Source of the DNA: Neoarius graeffei
Taxonomy: Eukaryota > Chordata > Actinopteri > Siluriformes > Ariidae
Assembly: GCF_027579695.1 (NCBI RefSeq)
Contig: NC_083572.1
Span: 11,690,915-11,754,914 of the forward strand
Length of the DNA stretch: 64,000 bases
Direction of reading: 5' to 3'
Shown: piece by piece, positions 4,372 through 63,746 of the stretch
How the letters are laid out: every line of letters starts with the position of its first letter
How positions within the stretch are numbered: the first letter of the stretch is position 1
Notes under the pieces: model-generated
What the model saw: the letters and a program-made list of their open reading frames with translations, nothing else
Database searches by the model: none
Told to the model about the DNA's origin: nothing
Program-made: the position numbers and the translations under genes

Positions 4372-4386
4372 AAATTTCTGACATAG

Positions 4387-4761
4387 GGCAGCACAGTGGT
4401 GTAGTGGTTAGTGCTGTCGCCTCACAGCAAGAAGGTCCAGGTTCAAGCCCCATGGCCAGCGAGGGCCTTTCTGTGAAGAGTTTGCATGTTCTCCCCGTGT
4501 CCGCATGGGTTTCCTCCGGGCGCTCCGGTTTCCCCCACAGTCCAAAGACATGCAGGTTAGGTTAACTGGTGACTCTAAATTGACCGTAGGTGTGAATGTG
4601 AGTGTGAATGGTTGTCTGTGTCTATGTGTCAGCCCTGTGATGACCTGGCGACTTGTCCAGGGTGTACCCCGCCTTTTGCCCGTAGTCAGCTGGGATAGGC
4701 TCCAGCTTGCCTGCGACCCTGTAGAAGGATAAAGCGGCTAGAGATAATGAGATGAGATGAG
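4387..4761 (+). mobile_element. tRNA-derived SINE, first of a tandem pair
   Basis: This is a full-length copy, from the GGCAGCACAGTGGTGTAG head to the GAGATGAGATGAG tail. The target duplication AAATTTCTGACATAG lies at 4372-4386 and 4762-4776. A second SINE starts directly after the right-hand duplication. Confidence 0.92.
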
Positions 4762-4776
4762 AAATTTCTGACATAG

Positions 4777-5150
4777 GGCGGCACGGTGGTGTCATGGTTA
4801 GCACTGTCGCCTCACAGCAAGAAGGTCCGGGTTCGAGCCCCGTGGCCGGCGAGGGCCTTTCTGTGTGGAGTTTGCATGTTCTCCCCGTGTCCGCGTGGGT
4901 TTCCTCCGGGTGCTCCAGTTTCCCCCACAGTCCAAAGACATGCAGGTTAGGTTAACTGGTGACTCTAAATTGACCGTAGGTGTGAATGTGAGTGTGAATG
5001 GTTGTCTGTGTCTATGTGTCAGCCCTGTGATGACCTGGTGACTTGTCCAGGGTGTACCCTGCCTTTCGCCCGTAGTCAGCTGGGATAGGCTCCAGCTTGC
5101 CTGCGACCCTGTAGAACAGGATAAAGCGGCTAGAGATAATGAGATGAGAT
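4777..5150 (+). mobile_element. tRNA-derived SINE, second of a tandem pair
   Basis: This is a full-length copy that begins immediately after the 3' target duplication of the first SINE. No matching duplication follows its tail (AAAGTTCACAGC follows). It therefore arose by recombination, or by insertion whose duplication has been lost. Confidence 0.92.
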
Positions 5151-19800: not shown

Positions 19801-22800
19801 AGTTTTTGTGTCTTGGATGACAAGAAAATTGTTTCGTTTTTAGAGTGTTTAACGTACATTGAACATCATGGTGTATTGCGACCTCCCAGTCAGTCAGACG
19901 CGCTGTCACTCCTGTTAGCAATGTAGCTAGGCTCAGCATGGCCAATGGTATTTTTTGGGGCTGTAGTTAGATGCGACCAAACTCTTCCACGTTTTTCCTG
20001 TTTACATAGGTTTATATGACCAGTGACTAGTGCTGTCAAAAATGTCGCGTTATTAACGCGTTAACTTGACTCAATTTTAACGGCGATAATTTTTTTTTAT
20101 CGCGAGATTAACGCTCTGTGACATGATGCCACGCCCCGCACAGCCAGAGTCCTCTGCCCTCCCCCGAAGAGCCACGGTGCTCGGCTTAAGTTTCGTTTTC
20201 CCCATCGGCGGCTCCAGCCCCACTTTGCAGTGGCTGTGACAAGACGTGTTATGCTCTGTTATGTTATGTTATCATTTTGCCAATAGAGTGCTTCGAGATC
20301 AGTGCGAACCCGGCGGCGGCCATATTGGAAGTCAAACGTCGCTGTGTCAGTGCATTGTTGTTGCTCAGCGAAGCAAAATGCCGAATACGTGCGTCATTGT
20401 TGGCTGTAGTAGCCGGGGGGAAAAGGGTGGCAAAAGCTTCCACAGACTCCCTAAAGTCGTGACAAACCCGGGAATTGCAGCACAGGAGAAAAGCGAGCGG
20501 AGGAGACGACAGTGGCTGGCTGCCATTAACCGATCAAATTTAGGACTAGACTGTATCCGGATTTGTTCTGATCACTTTGTGACAGGTAGGTTAAATTGTC
20601 TTGAATTTCATAGTTACTAAAATAAATGTGATACAAACTATTATATTTTCTATGTACTTTCAGCAATGATTAATGGATATATTTGTCACATTAGGTAGCT
20701 TATGTCTACTGCAGTGCATTGTTGCATCAAATGGCATTTAAGATCTAGGCCTAGTAATGTTTATGTACACATGCTGTCAGTACAAGTTACATACTAGGCC
20801 TACATTTTATTCACTGACTAAAATAATTGATAATTATGCGGCAACAAGCTGGGGTCAGCTTTCCATTCCTTCTCACTAATGCCGCTTTTCCACTACAAAC
20901 GCGGCTGAGTTGGGCTGAGCCGTGCCGTGCTGAGTCGAGCTGAGCGGGGCTGTTGGAGTTGCATTTCGACTACAACCGCGCTGAACCGTGCTGGCTGGAA
21001 GTGGGTGGACACATTGGGTGGAGTTAGCGAAAGTGGGTGGACGTCACGTGATGTCGTTAAGCAGCGCAAACAGTGACATCAGTGAGCTTTTAAGCGGTAG
21101 TCTCACGACCCGAATAGTAAACAATAAACATGGAGGACATGGAGTCGTTAGTGTTGCTGGTCTTGGTGCTGTGGCTTGTTGTCACCGACAACGCCAACAG
21201 ATACTGGCAAGAGCGTATAGATGAGGCGAGGCGCATAAGGCTTCATAATTCTCGTAATTATTCTTCTTCCGGGTTTACGGTGTTTACAGATCCCAGCGTG
21301 CTCACGGGGCGTGTGGGCACGTGAGGACACTCCTCCTCACCAATCAGTGCACAGGGGAGTGTCTGCTCACGCCCCCAGCCTCACTCGGCTCGGTTTGGCT
21401 CGCTTCAGCCCCACTCCAAAACCGTGCGAGTTCTATTTCGTTTCTACTGACCGCCAGAGGCGGTGCTTTCAGCACATGGATATCCATCACACGAACGTGC
21501 AGGTCGAGTAATAGTAACAACAAAGTCACGTGTGACCTGGGTGACGTCACCCCGTGACCCCGGCATAAAAGACCGGTAAACCCAGGAAGTGACCTCTTAC
21601 ATCTTCTCGCGTTTGCAGGTTGCGAGTTGGGTTGAAATTTGGACAAAGCGCTGTGGTAGTTTCGTTACCCGTAGGGTTGGGGCTGTGCTTATGCACCCTC
21701 CAAGAAACTGCGCTAAGTCCACCAACTCTTGTCGTTATATTCGTATTGATTTATTACTCCGTAAGCTGAGCGCTCTCGCTCGGTGGAGTTAGCTGATTAG
21801 CCCCCCGGGGCGGTGTCCTCACCGCTGGAGGCCGGCTTGTTTTCGCTTCAGGTAAGCGGGTTTCATTTATTTAAATTAAAGCGGCGTTCCTCTCGCCGCT
21901 GTTTATCAGTTCTGCGGCGCTCGGCGCCTATCCTTGTTAATATTATTAACCACCTTGTTTCGTGTAGCCTCGCCACCGGCCTGTTCACAGGCCGGCTGTC
22001 TTGTGTGTTGTATTCGTATTGATTTATTACTCCGTTAAGCTGAGCGCTCTCGCTCGGTGGAGTTAGCTGATTAGTCCTCCGGGGCGGTGTCCTCACCGCT
22101 GGAGGCCGGCTTGTCTTCATTCAGGTAAGCGGTTTTCATTCATTTAATTTAAAGCGGTGTTTCTCGCCGCTGTTTATCAGTTCTGTGGCGCACTGCGCCT
22201 ATCTTTGTTAATATTATTAACCGCCTTATTTTGTGTAGCCTTGTCTCCGGCCTGCTCACAGGCCGGCGGTCTTGTGTTGTATTGTTTGTTACTCCGTTAA
22301 GCTGAGCGCTCTCGCTCGGTGGAGTTAGCTGATTAGTCCTCCGGGGCGGTGTCCTCACCGCTGGAGGCCGGCTTGTCCTCATTCAGGTAAGCGGTTTTCA
22401 TTTATTTAATTTAAAGCGGTGTTCCTCGCTGCTGTTTATCAGTTCTGTGGCGCACTGCGCCTATCTTTGTTAATATTATTAACCGCCTTATTTTGTGTAG
22501 CCTTGTCTCCGGCCTGCTCACAGGCCGGCGGTCTTGTGTGTTGTATTCGTATTGTTACTCCGTTAAGCTGAGCGCTCTCGCTCGGTGGAGTTAGCTGACT
22601 AGCCCTCCAGGGCGGTGTCCTCGCCGCTGGAGGCTGGCTTGTTGTCGCCCAGGTAAGCGGGTTTCATTCATCTAAATTAAAACGGTGTTTCTCGCCGCTG
22701 CTTATCAGTGCTGTGGCGCACGGCGCCTATCCTTGTTAATATTTCCGACCACGGGTGTGTTCGCCCGGTCGTTTTTCATTACCGCCTGATTGTTTATTTT

Positions 22801-36132: not shown

Positions 36133-36297
36133 GCGGGTGTGAGCCAAACATGGACGATACACAACAGCCCTGTCTAATGATTCTCCACTGGCTGGAAGTA
36201 ACGTGCTCGCTGCGAGAACTGCTTTTGATACAACCTGCAGTTGCAAACACATCAAGTGCTTCACGACTCGACTCCTCATACTTATTGAGGTATTTCA

Positions 36298-36352
36298 CCT
36301 GACGTCACAGGGTCACGTGACGCCCCGGTGTCCGCCATTTTGAAGGTCAAGC
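36298..36352. promoter_or_regulatory. Candidate factor-binding sites in the transposon end upstream of cuta
   Basis: TGACGTCA (CRE-like palindrome) at 36301, GGTCACGTGAC (E-box) near 36311 and CCGCCATTTTG (YY1-like) near 36332 lie within 55 bp, about 170-220 bp upstream of the proposed cuta start. Motifs are seen; promoter function is inference. Confidence 0.35.
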
Positions 36353-36486
36353 TAGCTATTGTCAACAACATAGTAGCGAGCATGTTACTGTAGCGATGTT
36401 TACGTTCAGTCATTTGGATGACTGTTAAAACCTTTCAGTCTCAAGTTTTTCCTTTACTGTATTTACTAGTTTACTGTAATTATGAT

Positions 36487-36528
36487 CCGGCAGCTATTTA
36501 CACCGGATCCAGTGTAAATAGCTGCCGG
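36487..36528. repeat. 42-bp near-perfect palindrome, left cap of the array
   Basis: CCGGCAGCTATTTACACCGG is followed by its near-exact reverse complement with one mismatched pair. It sits between the left arm and the first array unit. Confidence 0.95.
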
Positions 36529-37251
36529 AGCACGCTCCGGCTTGCTCCCCCTCAAATTAAGCAGCACGCTCCGGCTTGCTCCCCCTCAAATTAAGCAGCA
36601 CGCTCCGGCTTGCTCCCCCTCAAATTAAGCAGCACGCTCCGGCTTGCTCCCCCTCAAATTAAGCAGCGCGCTCCGGCTTGCTCCCCCTCAAATTAAGCAG
36701 CGCGCTCCGGCTTGCTCCCCCTCAAATTAAGCAGCGCGCTCCGGCTTGCTCCCCCTCAAATTAAGCAGCGCGCTCCGGCTTGCTCCCCCTCAAATTAAGC
36801 AGCGCGCTCCGGCTTGCTCCCCCTCAAATTAAGCAGCGCGCTCCGGCTTGCTCCCCCTCAAATTAAGCAGCGCGCTCCGGCTTGCTCCCCCTCAAATTAA
36901 GCAGCGCGCTCCGGCTTGCTCCCCCTCAAATTAAGCAGCGCGCTCCGGCCGAGGTTCCGGAGCACGCTCCGGCTTGCTCCCCCTCAAATTAAGCAGCACG
37001 CTCCGGCTTGCTCCCGGAGTGCTCCGGCCGAGGTTCCGGAGCGCGATCCGGCTTGCTCCCCCTCAAATTAAGCAGCACGCTCCGGCTTGCTCCCGGAGTG
37101 CTCCGGCCGAGGTTCCGGAGTGCACTCCGGCTTGCTCCCCCTCAAATTAAGCAGCGCGCTCCAGGAGCAAGCCGGAGTGCGCTGCTTAATTTGAGGGGGA
37201 GCAAGCCGGAGTGCGCTGCTTAATTTGAGGGGGAGCAAGCCGGAGCGCGCT
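36529..37251. repeat. 34-bp-unit minisatellite
   Basis: The unit is CACGCTCCGGCTTGCTCCCC followed by CTCAAATTAAGCAG. About a dozen near-identical direct copies run from 36530 to 36950. Variant units with CGGAGTGCTCCGGCCGAGGTT inserts follow, then two to three units in inverted orientation (37160-37245). There are no unique spacers, so it is not a CRISPR. Confidence 0.96.
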
Positions 37252-37293
37252 CCGGCAGCTATTTACACCGGATCCGGTGTAAATAGCTGCCGG
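37252..37293. repeat. 42-bp perfect palindrome, right cap of the array
   Basis: CCGGCAGCTATTTACACCGGA plus its exact reverse complement. It is the same sequence as the left cap. Confidence 0.97.
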
Positions 37294-37620
37294 ATCATAA
37301 TTACAGTAAACTAGTAAATACAGTAAAGGAAAAACTTGAGACTGAAAGGTTTTAACAGTCATCCAAATGACTGAACGTAAACATTGCTACAGTAACATAC
37401 TAGCTACTATGTTGTTGACATTAGCTAGTGCTAACAGCTAGCTGCTAGTACACTGCTACAACACAGACACCAACCCTAATAATACAGTTCTTGGTCATTG
37501 CCTGGTAACAGCAAATTTATAATGGGCCATGGCTCAACAGACTAAGAAGTTATTTCAATGACATTTAATAACATTTTGTTTATCCTGAGGACCGAAAGTA
37601 AATGAAAATGTGAACAAACC

Positions 37621-38043
37621 TTAGCTGTAATAAGATGGCGACCACCGACCTCCAGGGACGACCCACTGGTGTAGGCATGTTACCCAGCCTGACACAAAAT
37701 ATTTGTAGGCATCCGAACTCTTATACGCTTTCAGATCAATACCTGTGTATGGCGATGGGTTTTTAACGACATAGGTATACAGATCATGTGGGCCGAAGTC
37801 AGGTAAAGACGAGGGCTTCGTGTACTTCCGTACGTCAGTGAACAATCCTGGTGGAAGCAGGTAAACGTCGTTCTCTAAGCCTGCTAACCTCAATTTTTGC
37901 AAATACCTCTCCCTCTGCTCGCCCTGTAAATGCCCTACGTCGCTGGATAGTGAAGGTGTTTTCTGCATCTCGCTCCTTTTTCTTTTATGTTTTTCGTTTG
38001 TCGCCTTCCTCGCATTCAAACTGATTCGAGCCGTGACATCCAA
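37621..38043 (-). pseudogene. ISL2EU-type partner protein, N-terminal fragment
   Basis: 140 codons. A basic stretch (ARKATNEKHKRKRSEMQK) is followed by GEQRERYLQKLRLAGLENDV, LLPPGLF, YTKPSSLPDFGPHDLYTYVV and GIDLKAYKSSDAYKYFVSGW. The SGWV...W block resembles the start of the SWIM/YqaJ-type proteins carried by ISL2EU transposons (from memory). Copy 2 keeps only the part to LLPPGLFTD (63265-63480). The nuclease domain is absent in both. Confidence 0.5.
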
Positions 38044-38097
38044 AACGGCAGCCTAACGATGCATCACATGACTTGGTCACGTGGGTGAAAAACCTCA

Positions 38098-38625
38098 ATA
38101 GCTTTCAGCTGAATATATGAATAATAAAATGGTGTCTTAAAGGGTTGAGGATGGATGGAATGGGACACATCATATTCACACACTCATTCACACCGAGGAC
38201 CACTCTCGAGTCATCAGTCCACCCACGTCTGGCATGTTTTTGAGAGGCTGGAGGAAACTAGAGAACCCAGAGGAAACCCACATGTTTTGAGTTTCATATT
38301 CAATAACATTATTATCTGATGTCTGAAAAATTGCACTAGCTTGTGATAAGAATTCAAGTGTTACACAACTTGTAAAACTTTGCAACTTTTAAAAATCAGT
38401 TCGTAACACAGCTGAAAGCAGGAATAAATAGATCCTTTAACACTTTATGCATTCTCTGTTATCTTGCTGATTTGTATACAGGAATATGTGGGAGTATTAC
38501 ACACATACAGGACAGTGGATTAATAACACAAGAAACAATCCTGGTGCAGAATAACTGATTACAGACTTTGCAATTATATATGGGTCTGTCTCAGAAACTG
38601 GGTACTGTGGGAGTACCCCACTAAA
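38098..38625. repeat. Old SINE-core-like fragment and filler
   Basis: 38170-38285 (CACTCATTCACACCGAGG, GAACCCAGAGGAAACCCACA) looks like a strongly diverged minus-strand V-SINE core. The rest shows nothing. Confidence 0.45.
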
Positions 38626-50538: not shown

Positions 50539-51109
50539 TTTCCAGCCAGGGGCGGATCTAGAAAAATATTTATGGAGTGGCAAGAGGGGGGCAGGAATTT
50601 TTGAGGGGTGGCAACGTATTACAGACATGTATATATACTGAATTTAATCACAGTTATCACAGTTTGATGACAAATAGTATGTAAACACTACAAAAGGGCA
50701 CAGGCTGCCATTTACAAACTCATACAGACAAACTTAATCTCATGCTTTTATTGTTCACGAAGAACACACATTCTCAGATGAGGTCTATACCATTTCTGGA
50801 CAGTTTTATACTGTATATGCAAAAGAACAGACACTAAAAAACAACAACAATAACAACACTGCTTCAAGTTCAGCATGATTTAACCCATTTACACCAGTGT
50901 CACATTTTATAGTTTTTTTTTTCTCACGCTTTGTAAAGGCTCATCAGTGAGCATAACATGAACTTGTCATGCCTACAACAGCTGAATGCGGCGATTTCCA
51001 TGTTGCTCAGCAAAACGCTTCACATTACATGTATAGTTAGCTAAATAACGTTCTCCAACCTTATTTTTATCCTCTCAAAATCAGCATCGCAACTATGCTA
51101 GCACTGTTC

Positions 51110-51485
51110 TCATCTCATCTCATTATCTCTAGCCGCTTTATCCTTCTACAGGGTCGCAGGCAAGCTGGAGCCTATCCCAGCTGACTACGGGCGAAAGGCG
51201 GGGTACACCCTGGACAAGTCGCCAGGTCATCACAGGGCTGACACATAGACACAGACAACCATTCACACTCACATTCACACCTACGGTCAATTTAGAGTCA
51301 CCAGTTAACCTAACCTGCATGTCTTTGGACTGTGGGGGAAACCGGAGCACCCGGAGGAAACCCACGCGGACACGGGGAGAACATGCAAACTCCACACAGA
51401 AAGGCCCTCGCCGGCCCCGGGGCTCGAACCCAGGACCTTCTTGCTGTGAGGCAACAGCGCTAACCACTACACCACCGTGCCGCCC
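51110..51485 (-). mobile_element. tRNA-derived SINE, first of a tandem pair
   Basis: Flanked by GCTAGCACTGTTC at 51097-51109 and 51486-51498. It carries the private variant GAGGCAACAG in place of GAGGCGACAG. Confidence 0.95.
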
Positions 51486-51498
51486 GCTAGCACTGTTC

Positions 51499-51877
51499 AT
51501 CTCATCTCATCTCATTATCTCTAGCCGCTTTATCCTTCTACAGGGTCGCAGGCAAGCTGGAGCCTATCCCAGCTGACTACGGGCGAAAGGCGGGGTACAC
51601 CCTGGACAAGTCGCCAGGTCATCACAGGGCTGACACATAGACACAGACAACCATTCACACTCACATTCACACCTACGGTCAATTTAGAGTCACCAGTTAA
51701 CCTAACCTGCATGTCTTTGGACTGTGGGGGAAACCGGAGCACCCGGAGGAAACCCACGCGGACATGGGGAGAACATGCAAACTCCGCACAGAAAGGCCCT
51801 CGCCGGCCCCGGGGCTCGAACCCAGGACCTTCTTGCTGTGAGGCAACAGCGCTAACCACTACACCACCGTGCCGCCC
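51499..51877 (-). mobile_element. tRNA-derived SINE, second of a tandem pair
   Basis: Flanked by GCTAGCACTGTTC at 51486-51498 and 51878-51890. It shares GAGGCAACAG and the CGGCCCCGGGGCTCG variant with the first copy, so the pair is a duplication of about 390 bp including the target repeat. Confidence 0.95.
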
Positions 51878-52208
51878 GCTAGCACTGTTCATTCATTATA
51901 ATTTCATTTCTTGATAGATAGTTAATCAGCTTTTACCCCTTTCCTCCTGTGTCTCCTTTCCTCGCGACTCCTGGCTCCCTCGCTTCGCGCCTCTCAATTT
52001 TCCAAAACAACCAATCTCTGGCATTATCTCGTGCTGCATTCGCCGCAGTCGGACATTGGAAATTCGCGCACGTAAATGTCAAATTGGCCGTAATTTTTCT
52101 TTGAATTCGTCGCTGCCAACTGGGGTGGCAGCTGGGGTGGCAAGGCTTTTTTTTAGGGTGGCATTTGCCACCCTATGCCACCCTGGTAGATCCACCCATG
52201 TTTCCAGC

Positions 52209-60767: not shown

Positions 60768-61305
60768 CTTTTTTTTATTCACCTTGTTATCCCGAGATAA
60801 CGACATAATTAATTCAGGATCTCGAGAAAACAACACAACTAATTCGAGATCTCGAGAAAACAAAACCGTTATTCCGAGATCTCGAGAAAACAAAACAATT
60901 ATTTCATGATCTCGAGTAAACAGCTGAGAAATGGTTCATTCAGGTGCACCAAGAGACTTGTGATATGCTGACTTTGGGGCTATTTCTCATTCTGTATAGA
61001 CGCAACTTTGGTCATTAGAATGTCTGGAATAATCGATCACCTAATAAGGCAATATTTTGATCAGGGGTTGACACAGGGAGAGATTGCATTAAGTCTTGTA
61101 ATAAGGGATAATTTCAAAATTAGTCCGCGGCACCTCCGCAGAAGACTGGCCCGGCTTCGTCTCTACCGACGGAGATACAGTGATCCAGCTGAGATCATGA
61201 AATAATTGTTTTGTTTTCTCGAGATCTCGAATTAGTTGTGTTGTTTTCTCGAGATCCTGAATTAATTATGTCGTTATCTCGGGATAACAAGGTGAATAAA
61301 AAAAG
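60768..61305 (+). mobile_element. Short transposon with about 100-bp near-perfect TIRs
   Basis: The left end TTATTCACCTTGTTATCCCG and onward is mirrored almost exactly at the right through GATAACAAGGTGAATAA. The TIRs contain three CTCGAGAAAACAA-type repeats. Copy A of the host hAT lacks it, so the boundaries are confirmed to within a few bases. No clear target duplication is seen. It encodes only the short frame at 61020. Confidence 0.8.
61008..61205 (+). CDS. Short helix-turn-helix-like frame in the long-TIR element
   Basis: 65 codons, MVIRMSGIIDHLIRQYFDQG then LTQGEIALSLVIRDNFKISP and RHLRRRLARLRLYRRRYSDP. The two helix-rich halves and the basic C-terminus look like an N-terminal DNA-binding part. 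It resembles the start of teleost proteins whose next domain is an integrase-type core (Ginger/KRBA2-like), by memory only. It stops inside the right TIR, so it is a deleted derivative. Confidence 0.4.
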   Translation: MVIRMSGIIDHLIRQYFDQGLTQGEIALSLVIRDNFKISPRHLRRRLARLRLYRRRYSDPAEIMK

Positions 61306-62465: not shown

Positions 62466-62658
62466 ATTGAGGTATTTCACCTGACGTCACAGGGTCACGT
62501 GACGCCCCGGTGTCCGCCATTTTGGACGGCAAGCTAGCTAATGTCAACATCATAGTACCTAGTATGTTGCTGTAGCAACGTTTACATTCAGTCATTTGGA
62601 TGACTGTTAAAACCTTTCAGTCTCAAGTTTTTCCTTTACTGTATTTACTAGTTTACTG

Positions 62659-63128
62659 AGCCAGCCAGCCCCGGAGCGCTAGCTAGCGCCGGCCAGCCCC
62701 GGAGCGCTAGCTAGCGCCGGCCAGCCCCGGAGCGCTAGCTAGCCCCGGCCAGCCCCGGAGCGCTAGCTAGCGCCGGCCAGCCCCGGAGCGCTAGCTAGCG
62801 CCGGCCAGCCCCGGAGCGCTAGCTAGCCCCGGCCAGCCCCGGAGCGCTAGCTAGCCCCGGCCAGCCCCGGAGCGCTAGCCAGCCCCGGCCAGCCCCGGAG
62901 TGCTAGCCAGCGCTAGCCAGCTCCAGAGCGCTAGCTAGCCCCGGCCAGCCCAGGAGCGCTAGCTAGCCCCGGCCAGCCCCGGAGTGCTAGCCAGCCCCGG
63001 AGCGCTAGCCAGCGCTAGCCAGCTCCGGAGCGCTAGCTAGCCTCGGCCAGCCCCGGAGCGCTAGCTAGCCCCGGCCAGCCCCGGAGCGCTAGCTAGCTAG
63101 CCCGCCCTGGCCAGCCCCGGAGCGTGCT
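62659..63128. repeat. 28-bp-unit minisatellite
   Basis: The unit is CCCCGGAGCGCTAGCTAGCG followed by CCGGCCAG, about 16 copies, with C/G variants and some units shortened to GCGCTAGCCAG. It is rich in GCTAGC and AGCGCT palindromes. There is no similarity to the 34-bp unit of copy 1. Confidence 0.96.
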
Positions 63129-63264
63129 CAGTAAACTAGTAAATACAGTAAAGGAAAAACTTATAACGGGCCATGTCTCAACAGACTAAGAAGTTATTTC
63201 AATGACATTTAATAACATTTTGTTTATCCTGAGGACCGAAAGTAAATGAAAATGTGAACAAATC

Positions 63265-63480
63265 TTAGCTGTCAGTGAACAATCCTGGTGGAAGCAGGTA
63301 AACGTCGTTCTCTAAGCCTGCTAACCTCAATTTTTGCAAATACCTCTCCCTCTGCTCACCCTGTAAATGCCCTACGTTGCTGGATAGTGAAGGTGTTTTC
63401 TGCATCTCGCTCCTTTTTCTTTTATGTTTTTCGTTTGTCGCCTTCCTCGCATTCAAACTGATTCGAGCCGTGCCGTCCAA
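63265..63480 (-). pseudogene. ISL2EU-type partner protein fragment, copy 2
   Basis: It matches copy 1 from ARISLNARKATNEKHKRKRS to LLPPGLFTD, then ends where copy 1 continues. About 290 bp are deleted relative to copy 1. Confidence 0.55.
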
Positions 63481-63746
63481 AATGGCAGCATCACATGACT
63501 TGGTCACGTGAGTGAAATACCTCAATAGAGTCTCTGACCCAAAGTAACTGTTTCCACTCTCAATGTCCATGTGCCTTGTAATAAATCCACTTGAAACGTC
63601 TTGAAAGTTGAACTTTAATCCTCGTTTTAACAATTACAAAGGTTCTAAGATGCAGAGAGTCAGGTAAGAAAAACTGTTCGCTTCCACGGCTTCTCGAGAT
63701 CTACCCTGAGAAGCGCGAGACCGTTCTTATGTCGCTGAATGAATTC

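Follow-up and report, generated by a model that had tools for sequence, protein, structure and literature searches.

Several, probably related, minisatellite arrays at the apex of one palindromic transposon family in Neoarius graeffei

The window analysed here is a whole stretch of 64,000 nucleotides of Neoarius graeffei DNA (assembly GCF_027579695.1, contig NC_083572.1, positions 11,690,915 to 11,754,914 of the forward strand), and it holds two copies of one palindromic, non-autonomous transposon family, each with a minisatellite at the apex between its stems. We use T1 to T3 for end families and A to E for apex types, labels coined in this analysis. Copy 1 is a complete element with a type A apex that runs from TGAGG to CCTCA (36286..38097, plus strand) and has the same ends as copy 2; the AT on its left (36284..36285) and right (38098..38099) is read directly from the sequence, with the duplication type, and with it the limit of the element, taken from 16 empty sites of a sister insertion. 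The left subterminal arm, which terminates in the stem TTTACTGTATTTACTAGTTTACTG (36352..36476, plus strand), agrees with the reverse complement of the right arm (37304..37428, minus strand) at 121 of 125 positions. Between the arms lie a 52-bp self-palindromic block that reaches from stem to array and is found in types A and A' (36477..36528, plus strand), a 34-bp minisatellite with some longer variants whose orientation flips near 37162 (36529..37251, plus strand), and the same block inverted (37252..37303, minus strand). The inverted repeat extends past the stem into the array, the inner arms matching at 134 of 140 positions. To the right follows a coding remnant, an N-terminal exon probably of a YqaJ-type gene (37648..38052, minus strand).

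Copy 2 is likewise a complete element, with the ends of copy 1, limits taken from the AT duplication of those empty sites and a type B apex (62468..63524, plus strand). It consists of a left arm with stem (62534..62658, plus strand), a 28-bp minisatellite in a single orientation with the right edge CCGGAGCGTGCT (62659..63128, plus strand), a perfect 34-bp right stem after which the remaining right arm is missing (63129..63162, minus strand), and a shorter coding remnant (63271..63490, minus strand). Its apex measures 470 bp between the stems, against 827 bp in copy 1, where the array changes to inverted orientation close to the right end. At 60770-61304 of the window there is another element, apparently unrelated, whose 114-bp inverted arms (96%) stand 307 nt apart and are built of approximately 30-bp tandem units (ATCTCGAGAAAACAAAACAATTAATTCAGG).

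The two copies align colinearly through the left end, left arm and stem and, past the apex, through the right stem, an intermediate segment and the right end, with copy 2 lacking most of the right arm and another ~205 bp. Their opening 24 bases are identical (two matches, where shuffling expects none), the left arm of copy 2 matches the left and right arms of copy 1 at 116 and 120 of 125 positions, respectively, and the right 268 alignment columns, coding remnant included, are 93.7% identical. These values bear out the earlier note, which had described ends, subterminal arms and a coding remnant common to both copies, and its unit counts of about 20 for the partly inverted 34-bp array and about 16 for the 28-bp array are correct. 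Long inverted repeats make up much of copy 1, as in foldback elements (arms of 125 bp, or 265 bp including array units), and do not do so in copy 2, with its 34-bp stems, or in the one-arm T3 type. The two stems of copy 2 are identical, and as single-stranded DNA this region folds better than every one of 20 shuffles (z −19). We reject the view of copy 2 as a lone chimera, since a common subfamily, B, found at 17 of 75 sampled places, has the same short right half and the same type of array.

With respect to the genome as a whole, we searched the window's own assembly (2.34 Gb, 38 contigs) and found 4,864 exact matches to the 24-bp stem end (2483 + 2381), with 0 for the reversed-pattern control. 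The sample was drawn from the first 100 of these matches, each of which lies on contig C1; with six chosen loci added, it gave 80 non-redundant places, 46 of them with two stems. The 75-place census is this sample after merging, minus five loci (L091, L092, L094, L095 and L096) picked for their likeness to copy 1; these were retained in the counts of 46 apices, edge motifs and unit distances, and orientation, and three of them enter the correlation of body and apex in 33 elements and two the arm-divergence and exact-motif reversal set. Among the first hits (L001-L008), L001 is copy 1, six were re-read at greater length as L091-L096, and L007 (type A, apex 371 bp) was omitted. Arm and stem are common to three end families, namely T1 (TTGAGGTATTTCACC), to which the window copies belong, T2 (GAGGATTTCGACGTGACGT) and T3 (AGACCCTTTTCAGTCACGTGAC), and T3-type loci have one stem each, save L066 with two.

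The target site can be read from one insertion found at three loci (L046/L049/L053). Its two flanks, joined into a pattern with 22 fixed bases, match 16 empty sites (0 in the control) of the form AAATTATTTCT-AT-TTGGCAGCCAG, with a single AT where the occupied sites have AT on both sides. AT flanks both sides in 37 of 39 elements, scored by eye and including two insertions present three times each. TA, which stands on both sides in 22 of the 39, was rejected as the target duplication because the empty sites show AT. The T1 element therefore spans TGAGG...CCTCA, which agrees with the limits first proposed for copy 2 (62468-63524) and moves the start of copy 1 ten bases outward, from 36296 to 36286. 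A genome search for an empty site of a second insertion, present at L084, L086 and L089, gave 0 matches.

In ISL2EU elements, the target duplication is AT, the TIR usually starts with GG, the transposase has DDE, HTH and THAP domains, and a second ORF carries a YqaJ exonuclease domain, according to the parts of the source available (PMC4482050). We observe the same 2-bp AT duplication here, and two T3-type loci tested contain a THAP domain (PF05485; E 7.5e-10 and 2.4e-6). A THAP exon string and a coding-remnant string are both present in 24 of 25 T3-type loci, L009 having neither in the stretch read. The ends are TGAGG in T1 and, if parsed alike, AGAGG in T2 and AGACC in T3. Since arm-sharing relatives carry a THAP domain, the family is ISL2EU-like, and since its terminal bases are not GG, and its transposase is known here from the THAP part alone, we use that term rather than file it as a member. 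The copies read are non-autonomous and, with TIRs, a target duplication and a variable internal array, correspond to tandem-repeat-carrying MITEs. Helentron and HINE elements are rolling-circle elements without a TIR-type target duplication, and the AT duplication with empty sites places the family outside them. The element end with stem had no match in viral contigs, and the arm had none in the genome contigs collection.

Of 21,341 candidate matches to the copy 1 coding remnant, 150 were scored, and its residues to about position 135 recur in the 149 others besides the remnant itself. In L102, a frame containing a YqaJ domain (E 2e-17) has, upstream on the same strand, a second frame to which the remnant shows 35% identity (E 1e-12). 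We infer that the two frames belong to one gene, and by this similarity the remnant is probably an exon of a YqaJ-type gene, although it stops short of any YqaJ domain itself; a Pfam search with it gave no match, nor did the protein match viral contigs. At 769-3248 of L102, a T1 element lies between the two frames of the apparent YqaJ-type gene and so seems to have inserted into a gene of this kind; a frame within that element is, as we take it from its motif, similar to reverse transcriptase.

We observe several apex types at one position. At the 75 places, T1 ends enclose apices of type A (17), B (17), C (4), D (1) and E (1), with one unassigned; T2 ends enclose C in all 8 cases and T3 ends A' in all 25, and one C apex has no recognised ends. 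Unit lengths are 34 bp with a 79-bp composite in A, 22-42 bp in B, 25 or 29 bp in C and 30 bp in E. Four disjoint apex edges, counted genome-wide by exact match only, occur 4275, 2956, 813 and 528 times. Sixteen apices of ≤30 bp lie between exact 15-bp stems genome-wide; they are short GC-rich units, single B, C and D units included, and 15 have the form AGC...GCT and one AGT...GCT. Tabulating the apices, as the earlier note had proposed, thus returned the different arrays at one position and none of the empty apices, whether at the 75 sampled places, among the 46 two-stem apices or among these 16 shortest ones.

The arrays of the two window copies had been described as bearing no resemblance to each other, which does not hold. 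A 12-bp edge, AGCACGCTCCGG, opens the array of copy 1 (36529-36540), and its reverse complement closes that of copy 2 at the stem (63117-63128); random 12-mers of like composition gave a full-length match in 0 of 20,000 trials, with three reaching 11. The units of the two copies also have the 9-mer CCGGAGCGC in common (P 0.008 to 0.04, depending on the kind of shuffle), and bridging forms exist. The seed-like apex D (AGCTAGCGCGCTCCGGGGCAGGCTGGCT) has 23 matches to B and 25 to C, and the first unit of E has 25 matches to C, each reached in 0 of 2000 shuffles, with direct alignment of B and E poor (84/2000). A aligns with B and with D (0/2000 in both cases), mainly via AGCGCGCTCC, weakly with C (5/2000), and at chance level with E (334/2000). 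Furthermore, once 1 of 96 apex sides is dropped, 73 of the remaining 95 carry the edge motif AGC(TAGC/GAGC)GCGCTC with at most one mismatch, and the 22 without it include 16 left edges of B and two sides of L066. Judged by alignment, B links to D, D to C and C to E in a single chain, which A joins mainly through the 12-bp edge. The arrays of copies 1 and 2 are thus probably cousins; A, which does not align with E and aligns weakly with C, could have a separate origin.

Array type is inherited along with the element body. Among 33 T1 elements with both ends and stems, apex word distance follows body distance (Mantel r 0.71, 0 of 5000 permutations), and within A or within B array composition shows no correlation with body divergence (r −0.05 and 0.04). 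In addition, there are mosaics: L030 has a C apex on a body that is A-like by distance, L037 and L051 have a C apex with A-like spacing, L014 has T2-like spacing inside T1 ends, and L068 consists of two right halves, head to head. Their make-up suggests exchange via the common arms.

Array length varies within a type and at a single insertion. Among the matches listed, 56 pairs of B edges on two contigs enclose 52-2696 bp, with 50 distinct lengths, and 15 of 38 AGCTAGC-edged paired apices fall at length 13 mod 30, a whole-unit ladder of which four apices were read (L097-L100), all of them 30-bp type E; these paired lengths were drawn from the first 100 listed places of the edges counted 2956, 813 and 528 times. 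Apex length is 416, 219 and 610 bp, with a single array type, at L084, L086 and L089, which are one insertion copied with its flanks (96-99% identical), and the duplicated insertion at L046, L049 and L053 is nearly constant (58, 54 and 58 bp); all these sizes come from one assembly, which can mis-size arrays. In 14 B copies, mean unit distance is 0.147 within and 0.246 between copies (0 of 1000 permutations), with copy-specific units clear in 5 copies and, in the other 9, a smaller distance to the units of some other copy than among the copy's own units, so that greater likeness of B units within than between copies is partly shown.

With respect to orientation, both directions occur in 15 of 20 A arrays, 6 of 10 C arrays and 0 of 18 B arrays (L010 and L068, among the 18, are not true B). 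By exact motif, a single reversal is found in all 17 arrays examined from the 21 with both orientations; with one mismatch allowed, 19 of 48 arrays reverse once and 4, copy 1 among them, reverse two to four times, which we tentatively put down to near-match noise. A single reversal fits the two arms of one palindrome, and the lack of inverted units in B speaks against fold-back switching there.

We consider it more probable than not that an inherited seed was expanded locally, with occasional exchange of apices, rather than arrays being captured recurrently. The family would have inherited a short, partly self-complementary, GC-rich seed between its stem ends (AGC...GCT, core GCGCTC), which would have been amplified in tandem in different subfamilies into the related minisatellites A, B, C and E. 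The arrays would then travel with the element and add or drop units in place, and apices would now and then be swapped among subfamilies with the same arms, presumably by ectopic recombination via those arms. One-unit forms would be ancestral, and slippage or template switching at the hairpin-prone apex may have added units, hairpin slippage being a plausible cause. It is chiefly the 12-bp edge that ties type A to the seed, and the one-unit apices could be collapsed arrays rather than seeds.

Ordinary minisatellite turnover, in which any GC-rich array varies in this manner by unequal exchange and the hairpin is irrelevant, is a possibility to be taken seriously, short of an even chance. The whole-unit ladder, the uniform orientation of B arrays and the change of array length in place are all consistent with it, but by itself it leaves unexplained why expansion started repeatedly at the apex in several subfamilies, and also why units in A and C change orientation once.

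Seed expansion does not explain one further observation in the arms. Across 107 arms of the three end families, a 43-bp stretch of the inner arm beyond the search pattern has 0.43% divergence, roughly a tenth of the 4.8% in the outer 33 bp; possible causes are constraint and repair of the region around the apex from other copies. The two arms of one copy differ by 0.042 (outer) and 0.008 (inner), close to the 0.046 and 0.009 found between copies (29 elements, 131 sampled pairs). We therefore reject a recent homogenisation between the arms of single copies, and the values suggest that the palindrome is older than the spread of the family. We tentatively entertain the reading that the apex is a standing generator of minisatellites, at which a hairpin-forming, GC-rich seed is expanded again and again and where other copies serve, via the common arms, to repair apices that have broken. 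If so, the inner arm would be kept uniform across three end families, and each new array would be spread.

Unlikely, in our view, is independent capture of the kind put forward for certain HINE elements, in which unrelated minisatellites would have entered the apex in separate events. The chance-level alignment of A with E and the additional 52-bp palindromic block on each side of type A point that way, as does the precedent of Cg_HINE group 2, in which, as far as the source was available, related flanks enclose unrelated repeats; against this, A and B have the same edge motif at the same place, one-unit forms and the D bridge exist, and no apex was empty among the 46 two-stem or the 16 shortest exact-stem ones. 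The earlier proposal that the element creates or captures arrays at its apex accordingly stands as to different arrays at one position and length change at one insertion, and is not supported as to arrays that are captured or unrelated, given their common edge motifs, bridging and one-unit forms and a type inherited with the body. We regard as very improbable a nested insertion, by which the type A apex would be a further small element, ending in 52-bp palindromes and bringing its own array, that inserted into the apex of an older copy: TAATTATGATCC...GGATCATAATTA is symmetric about the A array, and the block is one-sided in five of the six T3-type loci shown (on both sides in L066), but the AGC[AG]CGCTCCGG edge within the block is that of block-less copies, and a target duplication is indistinguishable within a palindrome. 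We likewise give little credence to the analogy with Galileo and Tetris by which units (core GCGCTCCGG) would be kept and multiplied as putative THAP transposase targets, which the THAP exon in arm-sharing relatives and a proposal in the available part of the Tetris paper favour, since unit sequences differ widely among types and one-unit copies exist.

The local expansion of an inherited seed, our preferred reading, has to be set beside known systems. The earlier note knew of no named description of arrays of this kind, which was too strong, since arrays within MITEs, HINEs and foldback elements are published, Cg_HINE group 2 included. Arrays in MITEs and related elements, with stem-and-loop models, are reviewed in the portions available of PMC12628747 and PMC9659126. 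According to these, the Xenopus Xmix/Xstir and miDNA4 MITEs (Hikosaka and Kawahara 2004; Scalvenzi and Pollet 2014) are likewise non-autonomous inverted-repeat elements with an internal array of variable copy number, but there the array derives from internal element sequence or one captured repeat, whereas here several related arrays occupy one apex. As described in the excerpts of PMC7492417, the Helentron derivatives Cg_HINE, Pearl and DINE-1 also have central tandem repeats and related flanks with different repeats, for which modular exchange was proposed; they are rolling-circle elements, unlike the present family with its TIRs, AT duplication and THAP-bearing relatives. Drosophila Tetris and Galileo foldback elements have long inverted arms, internal tandem repeats and, in Galileo, a THAP transposase, but their repeats lie inside the TIRs and their target duplications are of 7-10 bp, while here the array is at the apex (PMC4079207 and PMC4168063, in the sections available). 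The Porphyromonas gingivalis BrickBuilt is likewise a minisatellite-bearing MITE, but bacterial and with one 23-bp unit type (available part of PMC4596501). Similar in target site, as set out above, is the ISL2EU group of the PHIS superfamily, which in the sections available resembles the present family in AT duplication, in the THAP domain of arm-sharing relatives, probably in a YqaJ-type second gene and in occurrence in teleosts (PMC4482050, PMC9179366) and differs in its usual GG ends, in place of TG or AG (PMC4482050); the main text of PMC4482050 does not contain the word "tandem", nor that of PMC9179366 "minisatellite" or "tandem repeat". In the open-licence literature, we found no description of the present family or of one-unit apex forms. 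What is new is the presence of several related arrays at one apex, together with one-unit forms, minisatellites in MITEs and foldback elements being known already.

Minisatellite origins are seldom visible, because the pre-array state is lost. With thousands of copies, one position, one-unit and bridging forms and length variants at the same site, the present family displays array growth, loss and exchange in one genome, so that hairpin-driven slippage, unequal exchange and capture could become separable, given long reads and sister species; this significance falls if array sizes are assembly errors or the one-unit forms are collapsed arrays. Elsewhere in the window, a tandem repeat of 262 bp x 3.7 copies with 91% matches lies at 21754-22743, and 4372-5150 and 51097-51896 are each a tandem duplication, with unit lengths of 390 and 392 bp.
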